Positions 5,764-22,990 of a DNA stretch of 38,712 bases are shown here, one piece after another (within the stretch, counting starts at the first letter, position 1; every line of letters begins with the position of its first letter). The stretch spans positions 1-38,712 of IMG/VR virus record IMGVR_UViG_3300037133_000122. One strand, given 5' to 3'. The position numbers and the translations under genes were made by a program. The DNA comes from a virus. The notes beneath the pieces were generated by a model. That model saw only the letters and a program-made list of their open reading frames with translations, ran no database searches and was not told the DNA's origin.

Positions 5764-7437
5764 CTACCCCCGGTAGATAGCTGGGATGTTGGATGGAGCC
5801 GCCTGTTTTGGCTCGGGAATGTCACTGACAAGCACTTCCGTGGTGAGTAGCAACGCACCGATGGAAGCGGACTTTTCCAGCGCAATAAGAGCAACCTTGG
5901 CAGGATCAACGACGCCCGCCTCGTACATATCTCCGAAAGTTCCGTGGGCTGCATCATAGCCGTGTGAATCAGGTTGGCGCAAGATGGCACTTACGATCTC
6001 CGCTGCATCCTTTCGTCCAGCATTACGAACGATCTGAGTTGCAGGTTCGCGGATCGCGTTCAAGAGAATCAGTGCGCCCTGGCGCACGCCATCTGTAGTG
6101 ATTTTCTCGAAAAATGGCGAGTTGTGTTTTGACGCTCTAAGCAGCGCCACGCCACCGCCCGGCACCACGCCAGCCTCAAGCGCCCCTCGGCAAGCGTGTA
6201 CAGCATCCTCGGCGCGGGCCTTCTTCTCGATCATGGCGGGCTCAGAGTACGCGCCCACGCGCAGCACGGCCACACCGCCGGTCAGCCGGGCAATGCGATG
6301 GTCAAGCTGCTCCTTTTCGTAGGGATTCGTCGCGTCCGTCGACTGTTGAATCAACTGGCGAATGCGCTCAGTTTTCTTTTCTTCGTCAAAACCACCCTCA
6401 ACCAGCACGGTTCGCGTCGGAGAGATGATGGCCTGCTTGCAACTTCCGAGATCGTCAAGCGTAAAGCTGGAGAGCTGGTCGTCAACGCGCGTCGAAGTCT
6501 GCGAGTGGACACGCTTGGCTCCGATCGCAATCTGAAGGTCAAGCAGCGCGGCCGTGCGCGATTCTCCATAGCCCGGCAGTTTCACAAAGCACCCGCCAGG
6601 GATAGTTCCACCGGCAACCTGGGCAGCGAAGAGATTCAGGGCGTCACCCGTCAAATCCTCGGCCACAATCAGCAGAGGCCTCCGGGCTATGATGCACGCC
6701 TGAAGAATCTTGAAAATGTGATCGCCTGCGATATTCTGCCCGCCGACGATAACGCGCTCGGAAAGAAGGATGTACGGGTTGTCCAGCACGCACCGCTGGC
6801 TGGTGAGGTCGTTCACAAAAAACTGATTCGCCCCGTTCGCGCCCCGCCATCCCCGCTCGAAGTAGAATCCCTCGAGGTATTCGACGGTGGTTGTGTGGTC
6901 ACGGCTTTCGTTCAGCTCCACCACGCCACGTTCACCGACCTTCAGCGTAGCCTCGGCGATCAGTGAACCTAGCTCCACGTCCCCGTGGGTGGAGATGATG
7001 GCAACCTGCTTGACCAGCTCCGGCGTGGCTTTGATGGCTAACCTTTTGATGGTCGCAGCGCAAACGTCCGCCGCCACCTGGATACCGTCAGCCAGCAGTA
7101 GCGGCTCAGCCCCGGCGGAAACCAGCTTCATGCCCTCGGTGACGATTGCCTGAAGGATTACAGAGGCGGTGGTTGTACCGTCCCCGGCCTCAGTCACCGC
7201 AGCGTCGGCAACCTCACGCGCATAGGCCGCGCCCATGTTCTCAAACGGGTCGGGAAGGTCTGATACTTCCTTCGCCACGGTTACGCCGTCGCGGGTGGCC
7301 AGGGGCTGCCCTGGACGGTCCAACATAACGTTGCGCCCACGTGGGCCGAGAGTGACCTTCACGGGGTCAACAACGGAATCGACGCCGCGCAAGAGTGCCG
7401 CGCGCGCCTTGTCTCCAGAAAGTGTTTGTTTGGACAT
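5764..7437 (-). CDS. groEL: Phage-encoded GroEL-type chaperonin (60 kDa subunit)
   Basis: 557 residues, close to the bacterial length. Group I chaperonin signatures are intact: TLGPRGRNVML, the ATPase loops RDGVTVAKEV and GDGTTTASVI near residues 50-95, the segment AEDAVHACRGALEAG with the catalytic Asp, and GVVPGGGVALL near 415. It would assemble into an ATP-driven folding ring with the GroES encoded 0.7 kb upstream in the same operon. It lacks the GGM-rich C-terminal tail of bacterial GroEL and ends SNIPAIYRG. The apical-domain sequence diverges from typical host GroEL (e.g. EGFYFERGWRGANGANQFF). Divergence plus context suggest a phage-adapted copy for virion-protein folding. The start follows an AAAGG motif. 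Confidence 0.95.
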   Translation of the reverse strand: MSKQTLSGDKARAALLRGVDSVVDPVKVTLGPRGRNVMLDRPGQPLATRDGVTVAKEVSDLPDPFENMGAAYAREVADAAVTEAGDGTTTASVILQAIVTEGMKLVSAGAEPLLLADGIQVAADVCAATIKRLAIKATPELVKQVAIISTHGDVELGSLIAEATLKVGERGVVELNESRDHTTTVEYLEGFYFERGWRGANGANQFFVNDLTSQRCVLDNPYILLSERVIVGGQNIAGDHIFKILQACIIARRPLLIVAEDLTGDALNLFAAQVAGGTIPGGCFVKLPGYGESRTAALLDLQIAIGAKRVHSQTSTRVDDQLSSFTLDDLGSCKQAIISPTRTVLVEGGFDEEKKTERIRQLIQQSTDATNPYEKEQLDHRIARLTGGVAVLRVGAYSEPAMIEKKARAEDAVHACRGALEAGVVPGGGVALLRASKHNSPFFEKITTDGVRQGALILLNAIREPATQIVRNAGRKDAAEIVSAILRQPDSHGYDAAHGTFGDMYEAGVVDPAKVALIALEKSASIGALLLTTEVLVSDIPEPKQAAPSNIPAIYRG

Positions 7438-7479
7438 ACATGCCTTTCAAATTTAATTTGTTTGGTGCTGACGACAACG

Positions 7480-7917
7480 CTACCTCTTCTGCGGCGTGGG
7501 CGCTTTGGGCCGGGCAACACATTCCGGGTCACCCTGGGCGCTCATGCTGATCTGATACTCAACTCCGCAGATCTCCTGCAGCTCCTGAACGATCAGAGAG
7601 AAGGCATTTCCCAGCGCCTGCGACTTTTGCAACTCCGCAGATCCGTAAAAATCCCTGTACACCTTTGAGTGCTCAAGTTCGAGCTGGGCATCGGCCGCTG
7701 CAGCCTTAGCCTTCAGGAGGCGGTACTTGAGCGCATCCGGCACAACAGGTGCCGCAGTTTTTTCGCTTGGCGGCAAAGCTGGCTTAACAACTCCGGCGGG
7801 ATGGCTGGGTTTTTCTGTGGCCGGTGCTACAAGCGCATGTTTGACGTTGGTCTGAATCTGAGCGCTGGCCATTGCCGTGCCGAGAACCAGAAGTGCAACA
7901 AGTGAGATGTGCTTCAT
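7480..7917 (-). CDS. Secreted or periplasmic hypothetical protein
   Basis: 145 residues with a clear Sec signal peptide (MKHISLVALLVLGTAMASAQ, cleavage after ASA). A Pro/Ala/Lys-rich linker (residues ~25-60) follows, then a charged helix (KYRLLKAKAAAADAQLELEHSKVYRDFY) and a C-terminal segment with two cysteines (CGVEYQ and DPEC) that could form a disulphide in the periplasm. The start follows GGAG in the proper position. It sits between the groES/hairpin region and groEL. The function is unknown; a spanin-like role cannot be excluded, but no lipobox or transmembrane anchor beyond the signal is visible. Confidence 0.6.
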   Translation of the reverse strand: MKHISLVALLVLGTAMASAQIQTNVKHALVAPATEKPSHPAGVVKPALPPSEKTAAPVVPDALKYRLLKAKAAAADAQLELEHSKVYRDFYGSAELQKSQALGNAFSLIVQELQEICGVEYQISMSAQGDPECVARPKAPTPQKR

Positions 7918-7946
7918 GTTTTTCTCCTGTGATTGAGGTGGTCAAT

Positions 7947-8032
7947 GAATTGCGCGGCAGGCGGACATGATGACTCTGTACCCCGCATCGTGTTGACGGC
8001 GACCTCGATATTTTGAGCAGCCGCGCAAACTT
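7947..8032 (-). repeat. Hairpin element copy A: conserved closing stem, 61-nt unique interior
   Basis: Read leftward, it begins AAGTTTGCGCGGC and ends GCCGCGCAATTCA. The arms TTGCGCGGC (7950-7958) and GCCGCGCAA (8020-8028) pair perfectly over nine bases around a 61-nt interior that shares nothing obvious with the other copies. It lies seven bases from copy B, between groES and the secreted-protein gene, in transcription orientation. The same terminal sequences recur at 36004-36094. Possible roles are a structured small RNA, a processing site or a tiny mobile element; none is proven. Confidence 0.65.
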
Positions 8033-8039
8033 GGTTACT

Positions 8040-8124
8040 GAATTGCGCGGGTCCGTAGTCCTTAATCGTCCACAGAACCCGCCGAAGCGTCCAGACTTTA
8101 CAGAACGGTTGCCCGCGCAAACTT
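8040..8124 (-). repeat. Hairpin element copy B: conserved closing stem, 60-nt unique interior
   Basis: Read leftward, it begins AAGTTTGCGCGGG three bases after the groES stop codon and ends CCCGCGCAATTCA. The arms TTGCGCGGG (8043-8051) and CCCGCGCAA (8112-8120) pair over nine bases. The 60-nt interior differs from copies A and C and contains a C(TTCG)G tetraloop-like hairpin. It stands in tandem with copy A. Confidence 0.65.
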
Positions 8125-8126
8125 AA

Positions 8127-8468
8127 TTACATGAGCGCCATTGGAAGCGGAACTTTCGGAGGTCCGATCGGCCTACGCCCATGGATCTCTTCATCGCGCA
8201 TCGAAAGAAACTTCTCACCGTCGACTTCGATTTCAGATCCAGCAAAGTCACCAAAGCAAACATGGTCACCCGGTTCAATATCCACCGGATCAATCTGCCA
8301 CGTCAGCCGGTTGCGCAGCCCAGGCCCGACAGCCACGACGATACCCTCGTCAAGCTGTTTTTGCATTGATCCCGGAACAATGACCTCGCCCGGCTTTGGC
8401 GCCGGACGTTCCAACCGGCGGACGACTACTCTGTCTCCACGCGGCTCATAGTTGATGGTGCTCTTCAA
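8127..8468 (-). CDS. groES: Phage-encoded GroES-type co-chaperonin
   Basis: 113 residues from a TTG at 8468, set by a strong AAGGAGG six bases upstream. The GroES fold is readable: YEPRGDRVVVRRLE at the N-terminus, a mobile-loop region (RPAPKPGEVIVPGSMQKQ) with the IVP-like hydrophobic contact, then GIVVAVGPG, VDIEPGDHVCFGDFAG and the final FLSMRDEEIHG. It caps the GroEL ring during ATP-driven folding. It differs from host GroES in an ~8-residue insertion before the second strand and a proline-rich C-terminal extension. Gene order is groES, two hairpin elements, a secreted-protein gene, then groEL, all leftward; this split arrangement is unusual for a chaperonin operon. Confidence 0.9.
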   Translation of the reverse strand: MKSTINYEPRGDRVVVRRLERPAPKPGEVIVPGSMQKQLDEGIVVAVGPGLRNRLTWQIDPVDIEPGDHVCFGDFAGSEIEVDGEKFLSMRDEEIHGRRPIGPPKVPLPMALM

Positions 8469-8670
8469 TGTGTTCCTCCTTGACTGAATTTCCAAACTGG
8501 TGAATCTCGGCATTGTGAACGCTGAAAATAGCAGATTCAATGCTCGTTTGAGCTGTTTCATAGCAGCACATAGCTGAAGTGTTGTGGTGGATAAACTCTT
8601 CGCCGTGTGCCTGCGCGGCAACTTGTGCGTGGGCCTTCAAAAGAAGACCAAGGATACTTTGACTATTCAC
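8446..8670 (-). CDS. Small hypothetical protein, histidine-rich
   Basis: 74 residues from a GTG at 8670 with GGAGA six bases upstream. Its start overlaps the previous stop (GTGA) and its end overlaps the groES start by 23 bases, so translation is probably coupled to groES. The sequence is helical with clustered histidines and an HIEEHH-type tail. No family is recognised. Confidence 0.5.
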   Translation of the reverse strand: MNSQSILGLLLKAHAQVAAQAHGEEFIHHNTSAMCCYETAQTSIESAIFSVHNAEIHQFGNSVKEEHIEEHHQL

Positions 8671-17853: not shown

Positions 17854-18082
17854 TCGGGACCACTTTATCTGTGTCGACTGCGCCCGCACCGTGGCCTGGG
17901 ATGAGAAGGACGCACGGGAGTTTGACCTGCCCATCGGTGAGATGAGCCACGTCAAAAGCAAGCGCATGTATGGCGACACCCTGGAGAACGTCGTCACCCG
18001 GTGCCGCGAGTGCCATCAAAAGAGCCACAACTGCGGCGGTCATCCGCTGCGCAAGATGGAGCAGACAGATGAAAATTCTTAA
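17699..18082 (+). CDS. HNH endonuclease
   Basis: 127 residues from ATG 17699 (MSWIPRRTPLKRT); TTG 17687 is an alternative. The basic N-terminus is typical of phage HNH proteins. The domain follows: LRRDCFDRDHFICVDC with the first zinc pair, GEMSHVKSKRMYGDTLENVVTRCRECHQKSH with the catalytic His, Asn and second Cys pair. Such proteins are metal-dependent nicking or cutting enzymes, often tied to packaging or homing in phages. Here it is upstream of the integrase rather than beside the terminase, so a homing or recombination role is also possible. Confidence 0.75.
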   Translation: MSWIPRRTPLKRTTRIRPVSQQRRKRSGKPGRTGIVRLYGKALTKLRRDCFDRDHFICVDCARTVAWDEKDAREFDLPIGEMSHVKSKRMYGDTLENVVTRCRECHQKSHNCGGHPLRKMEQTDENS

Positions 18083-18662
18083 GATTACAAAGGATGATCT
18101 AAATGAGCGGAACGAATACATCCGCTCACGTGATCTTGAATTTGAAGGCCACATCGAAGTCGAAGCATCGCTCGGGTGGGTCCGTGTACTCGGCTTTATT
18201 CGCGCCGCCGGCCGCTTGGGCATCGAGGCGGGCTCAGGCATCAAGGCGGGCGAGGGCATCGAGGCGGGCCGGGGCATCAAGGCGGGCTCAGGCATCGAGG
18301 CGGGCTGGGGCATCAAGGCGGGCTGGGGCATCGAGGCTGGCTTGGGCATCAAGGCGGGCCGGGGCATCAAGGCGGGCCGGGGCATCGAGGCGGGCTTGGG
18401 CATCAAGGCGGGCTGGGGCATCGAGGCGGGCTGGGGCATCAAGGCGGGCTCAGGCATCGAGGCGGGCTGGGGCATCGAGGCGGGCTTCTCTATTCTCTGC
18501 CAAGCAGGTCTTGCCGCGAAACTTCGCATCTTCGCCGGCCTCTGCATCTGGCGTTCTCCAGAGCTCGAAGAGCAGGTCATTGAGTGCGCCGAACTCACCG
18601 AAGGCACTGTGTGCTTTGGCGAGGTAAGACTTTCACCACAGAAAAAGACGGAAACTGAGTAG
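18069..18662 (+). CDS. Hexapeptide-repeat protein (15 GI(E/K)AGx units)
   Basis: 197 residues from ATG 18069, overlapping the HNH gene by 14 bases. A ~50-residue N-terminal part (KILKITKDDLNERNEYIRSR) is followed by 15 uninterrupted hexads of form G-I-(E/K)-A-G-x, where x is S, E, R, W or L. The spacing of one aliphatic and one Ala-Gly per six residues fits a left-handed beta-helix (hexapeptide) or similar solenoid. The C-terminal ~55 residues contain two cysteines and strands. No enzymatic motif. Unknown function; similar tandem hexads occur in other phage hypothetical proteins by my recollection. Confidence 0.6.
   Translation: MKILKITKDDLNERNEYIRSRDLEFEGHIEVEASLGWVRVLGFIRAAGRLGIEAGSGIKAGEGIEAGRGIKAGSGIEAGWGIKAGWGIEAGLGIKAGRGIKAGRGIEAGLGIKAGWGIEAGWGIKAGSGIEAGWGIEAGFSILCQAGLAAKLRIFAGLCIWRSPELEEQVIECAELTEGTVCFGEVRLSPQKKTETE
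18219..18488 (+). repeat. 15-copy 18-base tandem repeat inside a coding region
   Basis: The unit GGCATC(A/G)AGGCGGGCnnn repeats 15 times without length change. The A/G position alternates Lys and Glu codons and the last codon varies. The perfect 18-base register means copy number can change by slippage without frameshift. Confidence 0.9.
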
Positions 18663-19834
18663 TGCTGACTGAAACCACAATTCGCAAGCTGAAGCGCCGC
18701 GCCGCGCGCTATACAACGACCGACGCGGCAGGCCTTGGCCTGGAAGTGATGCCGACCGGCCTGAAGGTCTGGCGGTATCGCTACAGGTCTGAGCGCCTGG
18801 GCGAGAGCCGCCTGACCATCGGCCGCTGGCCGGGAGTCTCGCTGGCCCAGGCCAGAGTGCGCCGCGCCCAGCTTGCGGAGTGGGTCGCCAAGGGCGAGAA
18901 CCCGGCGACCGCCGCGCGCGAGGAAGAGCACATGAAAAACAGCGGGCAGACGGTGCGCGAGTTCGGCGCGCACTACATCAAAGAGGTTCTGCAGCGGGAC
19001 CGCAGGCACCCCAAAGAGCTGCAATCAATGCTGGAGCGGCTGGTCTGGCCGGAGATTGGCAACCGGATCATGAGCCAGGTGACCGGGGCGGAGCTGCGCG
19101 AGATCATTTTCAAAAAGCGCGATGCGGACCGGCCCGCCGCCGCCGCCGCATTGCGCAACCTGCTCAAGCGGATGTGGGACTATGCGATCGTCTGCGGCGC
19201 AGCGACGGCAAACCCGGCGCACGCCACACCACTGAAGTTCATCACGCGCAGCCGGACGCGCAGCCGGACGTTGAGCCGCATCGAGGTTGGCCAGTTTATC
19301 TCAACGCTCTACACGAGCCGGATCAGCCGCGCGCACAAGCTGGCGCTGCACCTGATTCTGCTGACTCTTTGCCGTAAGAGCGAGCTACGCTTGGCGGAGT
19401 GGGCCGAGTTCGATTTCAAGCAAAACATCTGGGAGATTCCGAGCGAGCACTCAAAGACTGGAAAGCCGCACATCGTGTACCTGAGCCGCCAGGCGCTGGC
19501 CATCGTCACCGAACTGCACGACTCGGCTAACCCACTGCAAACCTTCCTGCTGCCAGCAGAAAGTAGCTTCACCCAGCCAATGAGCGCCAGCACCCTGAAT
19601 GCGGCCATGACCAGGATAAAGTGGGGGATGCCGCACTTTACGATTCACGACCTGCGCCGCACCGCCGCCACGCTGCTGAGTGAGGCTGGCTACGCGCCGG
19701 ACGTGATTGAAAAGGCGCTCAACCACACCATCAAGGGCGTCCGCGGCGTCTACAACCGGGCCGAGTATGCCGACCAGCGCCGCGAGATGCTGCAAGCGTG
19801 GGCCGACATGGTCGACGAATGGAGAAATGTGTGA
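18662..19834 (+). CDS. int: Tyrosine-type integrase, P4/DUF4102 family
   Basis: 390 residues from GTG 18662, overlapping the previous stop by one base. The N-terminal ~85 residues (LGLEVMPTGLKVWRYRYRS, TIGRWPGVSLAQAR) are the arm-binding DUF4102 domain of P4-like integrases; the core-binding domain follows (~100-200). The catalytic set is complete: Arg in LCRKSELRLAEW, Lys in SKTGKPHIV, His and Arg in IHDLRRTAATL, His in LNHTIKG and the nucleophile Tyr in GVYNRAEY. It integrates the phage genome site-specifically; P4-type enzymes commonly use tRNA or tmRNA gene ends as targets, relevant to the tmRNA-like sequence 2.7 kb downstream. Confidence 0.92.
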   Translation: MLTETTIRKLKRRAARYTTTDAAGLGLEVMPTGLKVWRYRYRSERLGESRLTIGRWPGVSLAQARVRRAQLAEWVAKGENPATAAREEEHMKNSGQTVREFGAHYIKEVLQRDRRHPKELQSMLERLVWPEIGNRIMSQVTGAELREIIFKKRDADRPAAAAALRNLLKRMWDYAIVCGAATANPAHATPLKFITRSRTRSRTLSRIEVGQFISTLYTSRISRAHKLALHLILLTLCRKSELRLAEWAEFDFKQNIWEIPSEHSKTGKPHIVYLSRQALAIVTELHDSANPLQTFLLPAESSFTQPMSASTLNAAMTRIKWGMPHFTIHDLRRTAATLLSEAGYAPDVIEKALNHTIKGVRGVYNRAEYADQRREMLQAWADMVDEWRNV

Positions 19835-20481
19835 GATACCTGGACGTATGCACCGGAATTTCAGCGGCGACGGTGGCATGGAGACCGATGGGATGGCAGG
19901 CCGTGGCGTTCGCCGAGATTAACCAGTTTCCGAGCGCGGTGCTGGCTCACCACTATCCAGAAACGAGGAACCTTGGCGACTTCACGAAAATCCAAGCAAA
20001 CGAGGCCGGGCCAATTGACCTTCTTGTCGGTGGAACCCCCTGTCAGGACTTCAGTATCGCAGGACTCAGAGCGGGTGTGGCTGGAGAGCGCGGCAACCTC
20101 ACGCTTGAATTTCTTAGACTGGCTCAACGCCTGCGGCCCCGCTGGCTGGTATGGGAGAACGTCCCCGGAGTGTATTCCAGCACTTCCAAACACGCTCCCG
20201 ATCACTCTCACGACGGTGATGGACGATGGCAAGATGACGCAAACGAAAGCCATGCGTTCGCCTGTTTCCTGGCCGGACTTCAAAAACTCGGGTATGGGTT
20301 CGCCTACCGAACTCTGGACGCTCAATACTTCGGAGTTCCACAGCGCAGGCGTCGCGTCTTCGTTGTCGGACATCTTGGAGACTGGCATCGTTCCGCCGCG
20401 GTACTTTTTGAGCGCCAAAGCATGTCGGGGGATACTCCGCCGTGCAGAGAAGCGCGGAAAGACGTTGCCCCCCCGCCTTAG
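19831..20481 (+). CDS. DNA cytosine-5 methyltransferase, N-terminal part (frame ends at C7 tract)
   Basis: Starts at GTG 19831 (GGAG six bases upstream), overlapping the integrase stop. Motif I is YLDVCTGISAATVAW, motif IV GGTPCQDFSIAG with the catalytic Cys, then motif VI WENVPGV and motif VIII QRRRRVFVVGHLG. All catalytic parts of a Dcm-type enzyme are present, but the frame ends in VAPPP-stop just after a run of seven C (20468-20474). The target-recognition and C-terminal motifs continue in another frame. Without them the product would probably be inactive. Phages use such enzymes to protect DNA from host restriction. Confidence 0.85.
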   Translation: MRYLDVCTGISAATVAWRPMGWQAVAFAEINQFPSAVLAHHYPETRNLGDFTKIQANEAGPIDLLVGGTPCQDFSIAGLRAGVAGERGNLTLEFLRLAQRLRPRWLVWENVPGVYSSTSKHAPDHSHDGDGRWQDDANESHAFACFLAGLQKLGYGFAYRTLDAQYFGVPQRRRRVFVVGHLGDWHRSAAVLFERQSMSGDTPPCREARKDVAPPP

Positions 20482-21415
20482 CGCGCGCACTCACGGCGGT
20501 GGTGGACTCGGAACCGACTTCGACTGCGATGGAGGATTGATCGCCGGCACGTTGTCACCAGGGGCGCATCCCGGCAGCTACAACGGTCAAGACGCTTATT
20601 CAGGTCAACTGATCACCGCGCCACTGACTCAGAACCCCTACGCAGATAACGAGAGCCGCGAATCCTTGCTGGTCACGCACGCGCTCCGCGCCGATGGCTT
20701 TGATGCCAGCGAAGACGGGACCGGCCGCGGTACGCCGCTTGTTCCGGTGGCGTTCGTCCAGAACGCTCGTGACGAGATAAGACTGTTCAACGGTGACGGA
20801 CAGACAGTAGGCGCTTTAGCGGCAGAACCTGAAGCAAAGCAGCAATGCTATGTGGCGTTCGACTGCAAGGCGTCAGGCCGCAACGGATTCGGCGTTGGAG
20901 AGGTAAGCCCCACCCTGCGCAGCATGGGTCACAAGAACACGCACCAGAACGCCGGGGGGCAGGTTGCGGTGATGACTCTTGCAATCCGTGGACGTGACGG
21001 CGAACCAACGCTTGAAATCCGCGAGGATGGCACAGCGAACGCGGTGCTCACTCCGAACGGGGGGCGTGGAGGAATCGGCGTCGGTGCCGTGGCTATTCAA
21101 AAGCGTGCTATCTGCGAGAACCCTGACGCCGGTCCGGATGGCGTAGGGGTGCGGGATGACGACACATCGTACTCACTTGAGGCGCGCACAGTACCGCAAG
21201 CGGTCATGACGCCAACCATGGCCGTGCGCCGCCTGACTCCACACGAGTGCGAGCGTCTGCAAGGATTCCCCGACGATTACACGAAGATCACCGCCAAGAC
21301 AGCGGACGGACCGCGCTACAAAGCCCTCGGGAATAGCATGGCCGTGCCCGTGATGAGGTGGATTGGGGAGCGGATTGCGATGGTTGAATCAATCACAGAA
21401 AGGCCAAAGAAATGA
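20465..21415 (+). pseudogene. DNA cytosine-5 methyltransferase, C-terminal part in shifted frame
   Basis: This frame runs from the C7 tract to 21415 with no independent good start. It holds the variable or target-recognition region (LSARTHGGGGLGTDFDCDGG, FDCKASGRNGFGVGEVSPTLRS) and motifs IX-X (RRLTPHECERLQGFPDDYT and YKALGNSMAVPVMRWIGERI). Deleting one C from the run fuses it directly to the N-terminal part, giving one ~527-aa enzyme. The break is either a sequencing or assembly error in a homopolymer, slippage (phase variation), or a real inactivating mutation. Confidence 0.75.
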
Positions 21416-21754: not shown

Positions 21755-21782
21755 TTGACAGCCTTCTCAAAACTCGGATAAT
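21755..21782 (+). promoter_or_regulatory. Strong sigma70 promoter of the RNA operon
   Basis: TTGACA (21755-21760), a 16-base spacer and GATAAT (21777-21782) is the best promoter in the window. Transcription would start near 21789 and read through a ~140-base leader, the 21931 gene, the tRNA, a hairpin and the tmRNA. The leader has a GTACGC/GCGTAC hairpin (21795-21817) and GC-rich segments; no known riboswitch is recognised. Confidence 0.65.
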
Positions 21783-22305: not shown

Positions 22306-22380
22306 TCCGGGGTAGAGCAGTGGTCGCTCGCGTGGCCCATAACCAAGAGGTCGCTGGTTCGAGTCCAGACCCCGGCACCA
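22306..22380 (+). tRNA. tRNA-Met (anticodon CAT), atypical, CCA encoded
   Basis: Cloverleaf: acceptor TCCGGGG (22306-22312) with CCCCGGC, six of seven pairs, position 1 mismatched; D-arm GAGC/GCTC with GG in the loop; anticodon loop CCCATAA; variable loop AGGTC; T-arm with TTCGAGT; 3' ACCA encoded. The unpaired 1:72 and A11:U24 pair are initiator-tRNA traits, but the GGG/CCC anticodon-stem triplet is incomplete. Position 33 is C instead of the near-universal U, and 28:42 and 49:65 are mismatched, so function may be altered. Initiator, elongator Met or lysidine-Ile are all possible. Confidence 0.8.
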
Positions 22381-22383
22381 ACA

Positions 22384-22463
22384 GTTTGCAGCGGCATGGT
22401 GATACGCGAGATGCGTATACAGGGTCTTGAGTGCTTCTTCCCGTCCGAAACACCGCTGCAAAG
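22384..22463 (+). ncRNA. Hairpin between tRNA and tmRNA, related in design to the 7947/8040/36004 elements
   Basis: TTTGCAGCGG (22385-22394) pairs perfectly with CCGCTGCAAA (22453-22462) across 58 bases, inside which ATACGC/GCGTAT forms a second stem. The arms resemble AAGTTTGCGCGG/CCGCGCAA of the other elements with one inserted base, and the interior length is similar (58 versus 60-63). It may be a small RNA or processing hairpin of the tRNA-tmRNA transcript. Confidence 0.45.
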
Positions 22464-22498
22464 AGTCTCATTCCTCGCTTGAATGAGTGGTGGAGGCG

Positions 22499-22956
22499 GC
22501 GCAGTCTTTACGAATCGCCCAGGGTACGCATGGTATGAAGCGAGTTGAAGGATGTTTCGGACGTGGGTTCAATTCCCACCGGCTCCACCAATGGGGGGCC
22601 GTCACGGTTTCGACGGGAGTCTGGAGATTTGTGGACTGTGCAGGGACCGGTGCTCACCTTAACGAGAACCAAACAGCAACTGCCACCACACGTGACAGCA
22701 AGAAGTCAGCCAAGGTTTTGGCCTTCCCGGCCCGCACCGTGGCGCTTCAAATGGCGGCCTAACCACCGTCGGAGCCAGCCGGGAGCTTGGCAACAGAATT
22801 CCGGCACCATTCCATAAACAGAGAGGGGCGTAGCTAGGGAAAGAAAAAGCTGGACGGATTGCCGAGCGCTAGATCTGCGAGACGCGCTCAAGGTATAGGC
22901 AAAAGCGCAGGACCAGCCAATCTTGCAAGTCCTGAGTCCCAACATAGCAGCAGCAC
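22499..22956 (+). ncRNA. ssrA: Circularly permuted (two-piece) tmRNA gene
   Basis: The 3' part comes first: T-arm GTGGG-TTCAATT-CCCAC (22563-22579), acceptor strand CGGCTCC and ACCA (22580-22590). After only ATGG, the mature 5' end follows: GGGGCCG (22595-22601), pairing with CGGCTCC and including the G3:U70 alanine identity pair, then GTTTCGACGGGAG, the conserved tmRNA 5' signature. Helix 2 can form between the pieces: GATTTG (22626) with CGAATC (22511) and GACTGTGC (22634) with GCGCAGTC (22499). The tag frame ends ...AKVLAFPARTVALQMAA-stop at 22762, typical in its alanine-rich hydrophobic end. Pseudoknot-like stems follow. It would rescue stalled ribosomes together with SmpB. Confidence 0.88.
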
Positions 22957-22990
22957 CCAACAGGCAGCGCCATTACGGGCTGCCTGTTGG
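22957..22990 (+). terminator. 12-bp hairpin after the tmRNA
   Basis: CCAACAGGCAGC (22957-22968) and GCTGCCTGTTGG (22979-22990) pair perfectly around a ten-base loop. No T run follows, but the position directly after the tmRNA fits a terminator or 3'-processing hairpin. The next gene starts 12 bases later. Confidence 0.6.

Follow-up and report, generated by a model that had tools for sequence, protein, structure and literature searches.

The 38,712-bp IMG/VR virus contig analysed here (the window, taken at its full length) carries a genuine circularly permuted tmRNA gene, which with a probability of roughly 0.87 serves a tailed phage as a working two-piece tmRNA. This assessment draws on the anatomy of the tmRNA, the pairing between its two pieces, its tag frame and its recurrence in related phages. 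The tmRNA is an ordinary phage-borne two-piece tmRNA, of a kind already known in named phages and in many virus contigs, and the features that remain unusual are its long tag (AKVLAFP...) and its cellular source.

The sequence, ARAGORN and Rfam all placed the 3' part of the tRNA-like domain ahead of the 5' part. ARAGORN called a circularly permuted tmRNA (tmRNA*) at 22496-22853 of the virus record, and in a search of the whole window the permuted tmRNA family RF04321 (tmRNA_permuted) matched end to end (E value, 1.1e-13). A covariance-model search had been proposed in the first-pass annotation of this DNA; its score of 79 bits against a curated cut-off of 47 bits places the tmRNA far beyond chance. 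Only RF04321 and a tRNA passed the Rfam cut-offs in the window. None of the alpha, beta and cyano subtype models (RF01849, RF01850, and RF01851) reached threshold there, and the alpha model scored 9.2 bits at 22720-22808, below its cut-off. RF04321, which merges the alpha, beta and cyano permuted families, has the same gene order, tRNA-like domain, CCA, G3:U70 pair, helix 2 and tag as the window, but the tag of the window is longer (26 amino acids) and its 4-nt spacer is shorter than that of the model consensus.

The acceptor stem between the pieces (GGGGCCG/CGGCTCC), read from the sequence, is a perfect 7-bp helix with the G3:U70 pair, and CCA is encoded in the gene. The permuted order, the CCA, the ATGG spacer, this stem, the D-loop motif and the tag end at 22762 were borne out by the sequence, ARAGORN and RF04321 together. 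A full one-piece tmRNA with its own 3' end downstream of 22762, which had been named as one finding that would speak against permutation, was detected in the record neither by ARAGORN nor by covariance models. A match to RF00023 at 22400-22590 was set aside, as it covers only the helix-2 and T-arm end, and posterior probabilities are low over the upstream part of the match.

Table 1. Features of the permuted tmRNA locus and its neighbours (positions in the window)
Feature	Position	Strand	Basis or remark
Integrase	18662-19834		
tRNA-Met (CAT)	22306-22380	+	ARAGORN; RF00005, 38.5 bits; also in L038
Acceptor (3') piece	22528-22590	+	ARAGORN, Rfam, helix-2 analysis; 5' end not mapped, ARAGORN gene start 22496
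T-arm	22563-22579	+	Within acceptor piece, which also contains GGACG
Acceptor strand CGGCTCC	22580-22586	+	Within acceptor piece
ACCA	22587-22590	+	End of acceptor piece
Intervening segment ATGG	22591-22594	+	Sequence; same ATGG in L025, L026, L036, L038
Coding (5') piece	22595-22805	+	ARAGORN, Rfam, hairpin; 3' end inferred, ARAGORN end 22853
Acceptor strand GGGGCCG	22595-22601	+	Start of coding piece
D-loop motif GGTTTCGAC	22606-22614	+	Within coding piece
Helix-2 strands of coding piece	22615-22641	+	
Tag reading frame ATTRDSKKSAKVLAFPARTVALQMAA-stop	22682-22762	+	ARAGORN
Conserved hairpin (PK2 region), loop GGCAACAGAA	22778-22805	+	Two-sided stem changes in 7 tmRNAs; loop conserved

From this anatomy we infer that transcription, processing, charging and tagging, with a presumed benefit to the phage, would follow the two-piece pathway as outlined in PMC3985003 (citing Keiler 2000). 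The locus would be transcribed as one precursor, from which host tRNA-processing enzymes, with cuts at the CCA and the 5' G, would remove the 4-nt ATGG. The acceptor stem and helix 2 would then keep the acceptor piece, with its CCA end, bound to the coding piece, with its GGGG start, and the host AlaRS would charge the tmRNA with alanine through G3:U70. SmpB is not encoded in the record; entry into stalled ribosomes, and their rescue during infection, would depend on host SmpB. The charged alanine and the 26-residue tag would be added to the stalled product, marking it for host proteases. Trans-translation by the window tmRNA with host SmpB and AlaRS is a likely, sequence-based prediction.

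The first-pass annotation had regarded a permuted phage tmRNA with a tRNA neighbour and so short a spacer as without precedent. This did not hold, as all three features are united in Synechococcus phage S-CAM1 (KU686192), whose permuted tmRNA (RF01851, cyano_tmRNA, 128 bits) adjoins an annotated tRNA-Arg and tRNA-Val. Its junction reads CACCTCC-ACTC-AT and then directly GGGGGTG, so that only 2 nt follow the CCA-equivalent. The cyanophage S-SSM7 (GU071098) likewise has a permuted tmRNA (RF01851, 109 bits), with 2 nt after the CCA-equivalent. Both resemble the window in being phages with a permuted tmRNA and a very short spacer but differ in that their tmRNAs are of the cyano type and have no encoded CCA; the S-CAM1 tag is ANTSDSAANNIVAFSRSTVAA. 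Neither tmRNA is annotated in its record (S-CAM1, L249:1441-1755; S-SSM7, L250:1442-1793), and hypothetical proteins are called there instead. Methylophage Melnitz, pelagiphage Mosig and their relatives also carry complete permuted tmRNAs in their genomes (PMC9004378), and 53 of 133 distinct phage tmRNAs were reported as permuted in the same paper. These phages are mostly marine or aquatic, and the ssrA of Melnitz carries a glutamine riboswitch (PMC9004378).

Very short spacers are common among permuted phage tmRNAs: 37 virus contigs other than the window have one of 4 to 6 nt, and in 17 of these it is exactly 4 nt. One contig (L024) has a permuted tmRNA with a 6-nt spacer and, roughly 1 kb upstream, a tRNA-Met. 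Short spacers are also found in cells. All 32 cellular permuted loci found with spacers of 1 to 8 nt belong, as far as named, to Betaproteobacteria, and the spacer is exactly 4 nt in 30 of them; a 4-nt spacer is normal in permuted tmRNAs of Rhodocyclales. The betaproteobacterial tmRNAs (Rhodocyclales, Accumulibacter) share the 4-nt spacer with the window but have a short tag, ANDEQFAIAA in one read by ARAGORN. In a tree of the tRNA-like domain, the window tmRNA did not group with them; it was joined with that of virus contig L025 with support (100/99), on long branches, and placement beyond this pair is unreliable.

The tag called by ARAGORN comprises 26 codons, with a resume codon and an alanine-rich end (...VALQMAA-TAA). 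Its likeness to cyanobacterial tags, pointed out earlier, proved superficial, and there was no cyano_tmRNA match at threshold. Long tags with similar cores were found in four virus tmRNAs, namely those of the window (AKVLAFP), L036 (AKLLTFP), L021 (AKVLAFP), and L131 (NVIAFP). The tags of Pseudomonadota loci, of which ARAGORN read about 60 of 70, were short, with the ANDN/ANDE type predominating, and no AKVLAFP-like long tag was found among those read from the sampled Pseudomonadota genomes. Because phage contig L021 has no evident kinship to the window, the tag common to these otherwise unrelated-looking phages may point to a donor or host lineage that they share. It offers a modest clue, either to a host lineage not yet sampled or to tagging specific to phages. 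One tentative and rather doubtful proposal is that the long-tag virus tmRNAs (window/L038, L025/L026/L036, L021, and L131) represent a further permuted lineage outside the three Rfam subtypes, derived from a host group not known for permuted tmRNA, or carry a phage-specific tag that changes the fate of tagged proteins. Two bacterial genomes, G312 (L178/L179) and G225 (L180/L181), have two different permuted tmRNAs each, and the tags of these doubled tmRNAs are ANDNYAPVAQAA and ANDNVALNEVRLAA.

The long tag raises the question of whether the main role of the tmRNA is other than ordinary rescue, with the tag competing with or re-routing host tagging as a decoy or reprogrammed signal. The occurrence of such unusual tags in four virus tmRNAs and in none of those read from the sampled Pseudomonadota is consistent with this, as is the finding that the phage DS6A tmRNA, which has no CDS, inhibits the endogenous tmRNA in Escherichia coli (PMC11915505). 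However, the last residues of the tag are MAA, as in a normal degradation tag, and its length may simply be that of the host lineage's own tag. Such a role seems unlikely.

The two pieces of the working tmRNA that we favor are also joined by helix 2, for which the support is moderate. Pairing between the pieces had been correctly recognized at first, but the two segments proposed (6 and 8 bp) fit less well than three blocks: 22528-22534/22635-22641 (7 bp), 22540-22546/22626-22632 (7 bp, G-U rich), and 22550-22558/22615-22622 (4+4 bp). The cognate duplex had an energy of -18.8 kcal/mol, compared to a mean of -11.6 kcal/mol when the partner strand came from one of 81 other tmRNAs. The cognate partner ranked second among 82, and 18 of 1,000 shuffled partners (1.8%) were as good. 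The support is graded as moderate because the helix is G-U rich and is absent from the RNAcofold optimum of the 70- and 62-nt pieces. The tmRNA of L025, L026 and L036, which is ∼73% identical to that of the window, forms the same three-block helix 2 (-22.1 kcal/mol) with both strands changed in sequence. The comparison was made by duplex energies; column-wise covariation in MAFFT alignments was not used, since the window and L036 are offset by 2 nt in the middle block.

Downstream of the tag, seven tmRNAs share a hairpin with the loop motif GGCAACAGAA or GGGAACAGAA. Of the 49 cells given by its seven pairs across these tmRNAs, 48 hold a standard pair, and two-sided changes are frequent. Given the position of this hairpin, the coding piece most likely ends near 22805-22853. 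An end at 22956, as originally annotated, is not supported, since the conserved hairpin and the ARAGORN end both lie upstream and the region 22762-22960 folds no better than shuffled sequences (z score, -0.6).

The gene could instead be a decaying or captured fragment of a host tmRNA, left nonworking by imprecise excision or as an att site. tmRNA genes commonly serve as integration sites (PMC11915505), the phage has an integrase, helix 2 is weak and G-U rich, and the RF04321 score of 79 bits is low compared with the sampled Pseudomonadota, in which most cellular permuted tmRNAs reach 97 to 162 bits. However, an att remnant would contain just a single end of the gene, whereas here the acceptor stem and T-arm, the CCA, the tag frame and the hairpin after the tag are all complete, and the divergent relative has retained helix 2 with the sequence changed on both sides. 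It is therefore quite improbable that the gene is such a fragment. A working two-piece tmRNA is the best explanation, although the G-U-rich helix 2, the lack of SmpB in the record and the terminase relatives without a tmRNA count against it.

The tmRNA recurs in other IMG/VR records. Contig L038 is nearly identical to the window, with a tmRNA identical over 22520-22815, and it and the contigs with the ∼73% identical version (L025, L026, and L036) have the same ATGG spacer and long-tag type. An assembly or concatemer artefact in which two standard tmRNA genes were joined end to start, which the permuted order alone would permit, can be dismissed, because the ATGG junction is present in all four of these records, in two versions 73% identical, and neither ARAGORN nor Rfam found another complete tmRNA of the standard kind in the record. 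No tmRNA was seen in virus records with 66 to 75% identical terminases, most of which are fragments, and the distribution of the gene among terminase relatives is therefore patchy.

The record encodes a terminase, an integrase, GroEL, GroES, TnpB, and a C5 methylase; the carrier is a tailed phage with an integrase, probably a temperate soil phage. A group reported so far mainly from marine phages is thereby extended to a soil phage that is probably temperate. Searches by tblastn with the terminase, integrase, TnpB, and a DUF5131 protein yielded only distant, mixed hosts.

The tRNA-Met lies 116 nt upstream of the ARAGORN tmRNA start. It and the L038 copy disagree at 8 positions, with one mismatch each in the anticodon stem and T stem in the window copy only, and in both copies U1 stands opposite C72; the window tRNA-Met may therefore be decaying. 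A strong sigma-70-like site (TTGACA-16-GATAAT; 11 of 12 positions) precedes the tRNA and tmRNA on the + strand, at 21755-21782. The C5 cytosine methylase (19798-21415) is split into two overlapping frames, the N-terminal part at 19798-20481 and the C-terminal motif at 19973-21415. The arrangement is identical in L038, and the methylase gene may be frameshifted, intact in two parts, or decayed. At 17946-18662, where both strands are open, is a GIEAG/GIKAG-repeat protein that the window shares with the L025/L036 phages. The groEL and groES genes (5764-7437 and 8127-8621, - strand) are ∼14 kb from the tmRNA. In another phage (IMGVR_UViG_3300025120_009955; L013:6136-8565), a permuted tmRNA with a 27-nt spacer is directly followed by groES (Cpn10, 6611-6916) and groEL (Cpn60, 6916-8562), an arrangement that resembles a phage protein-quality-control set.
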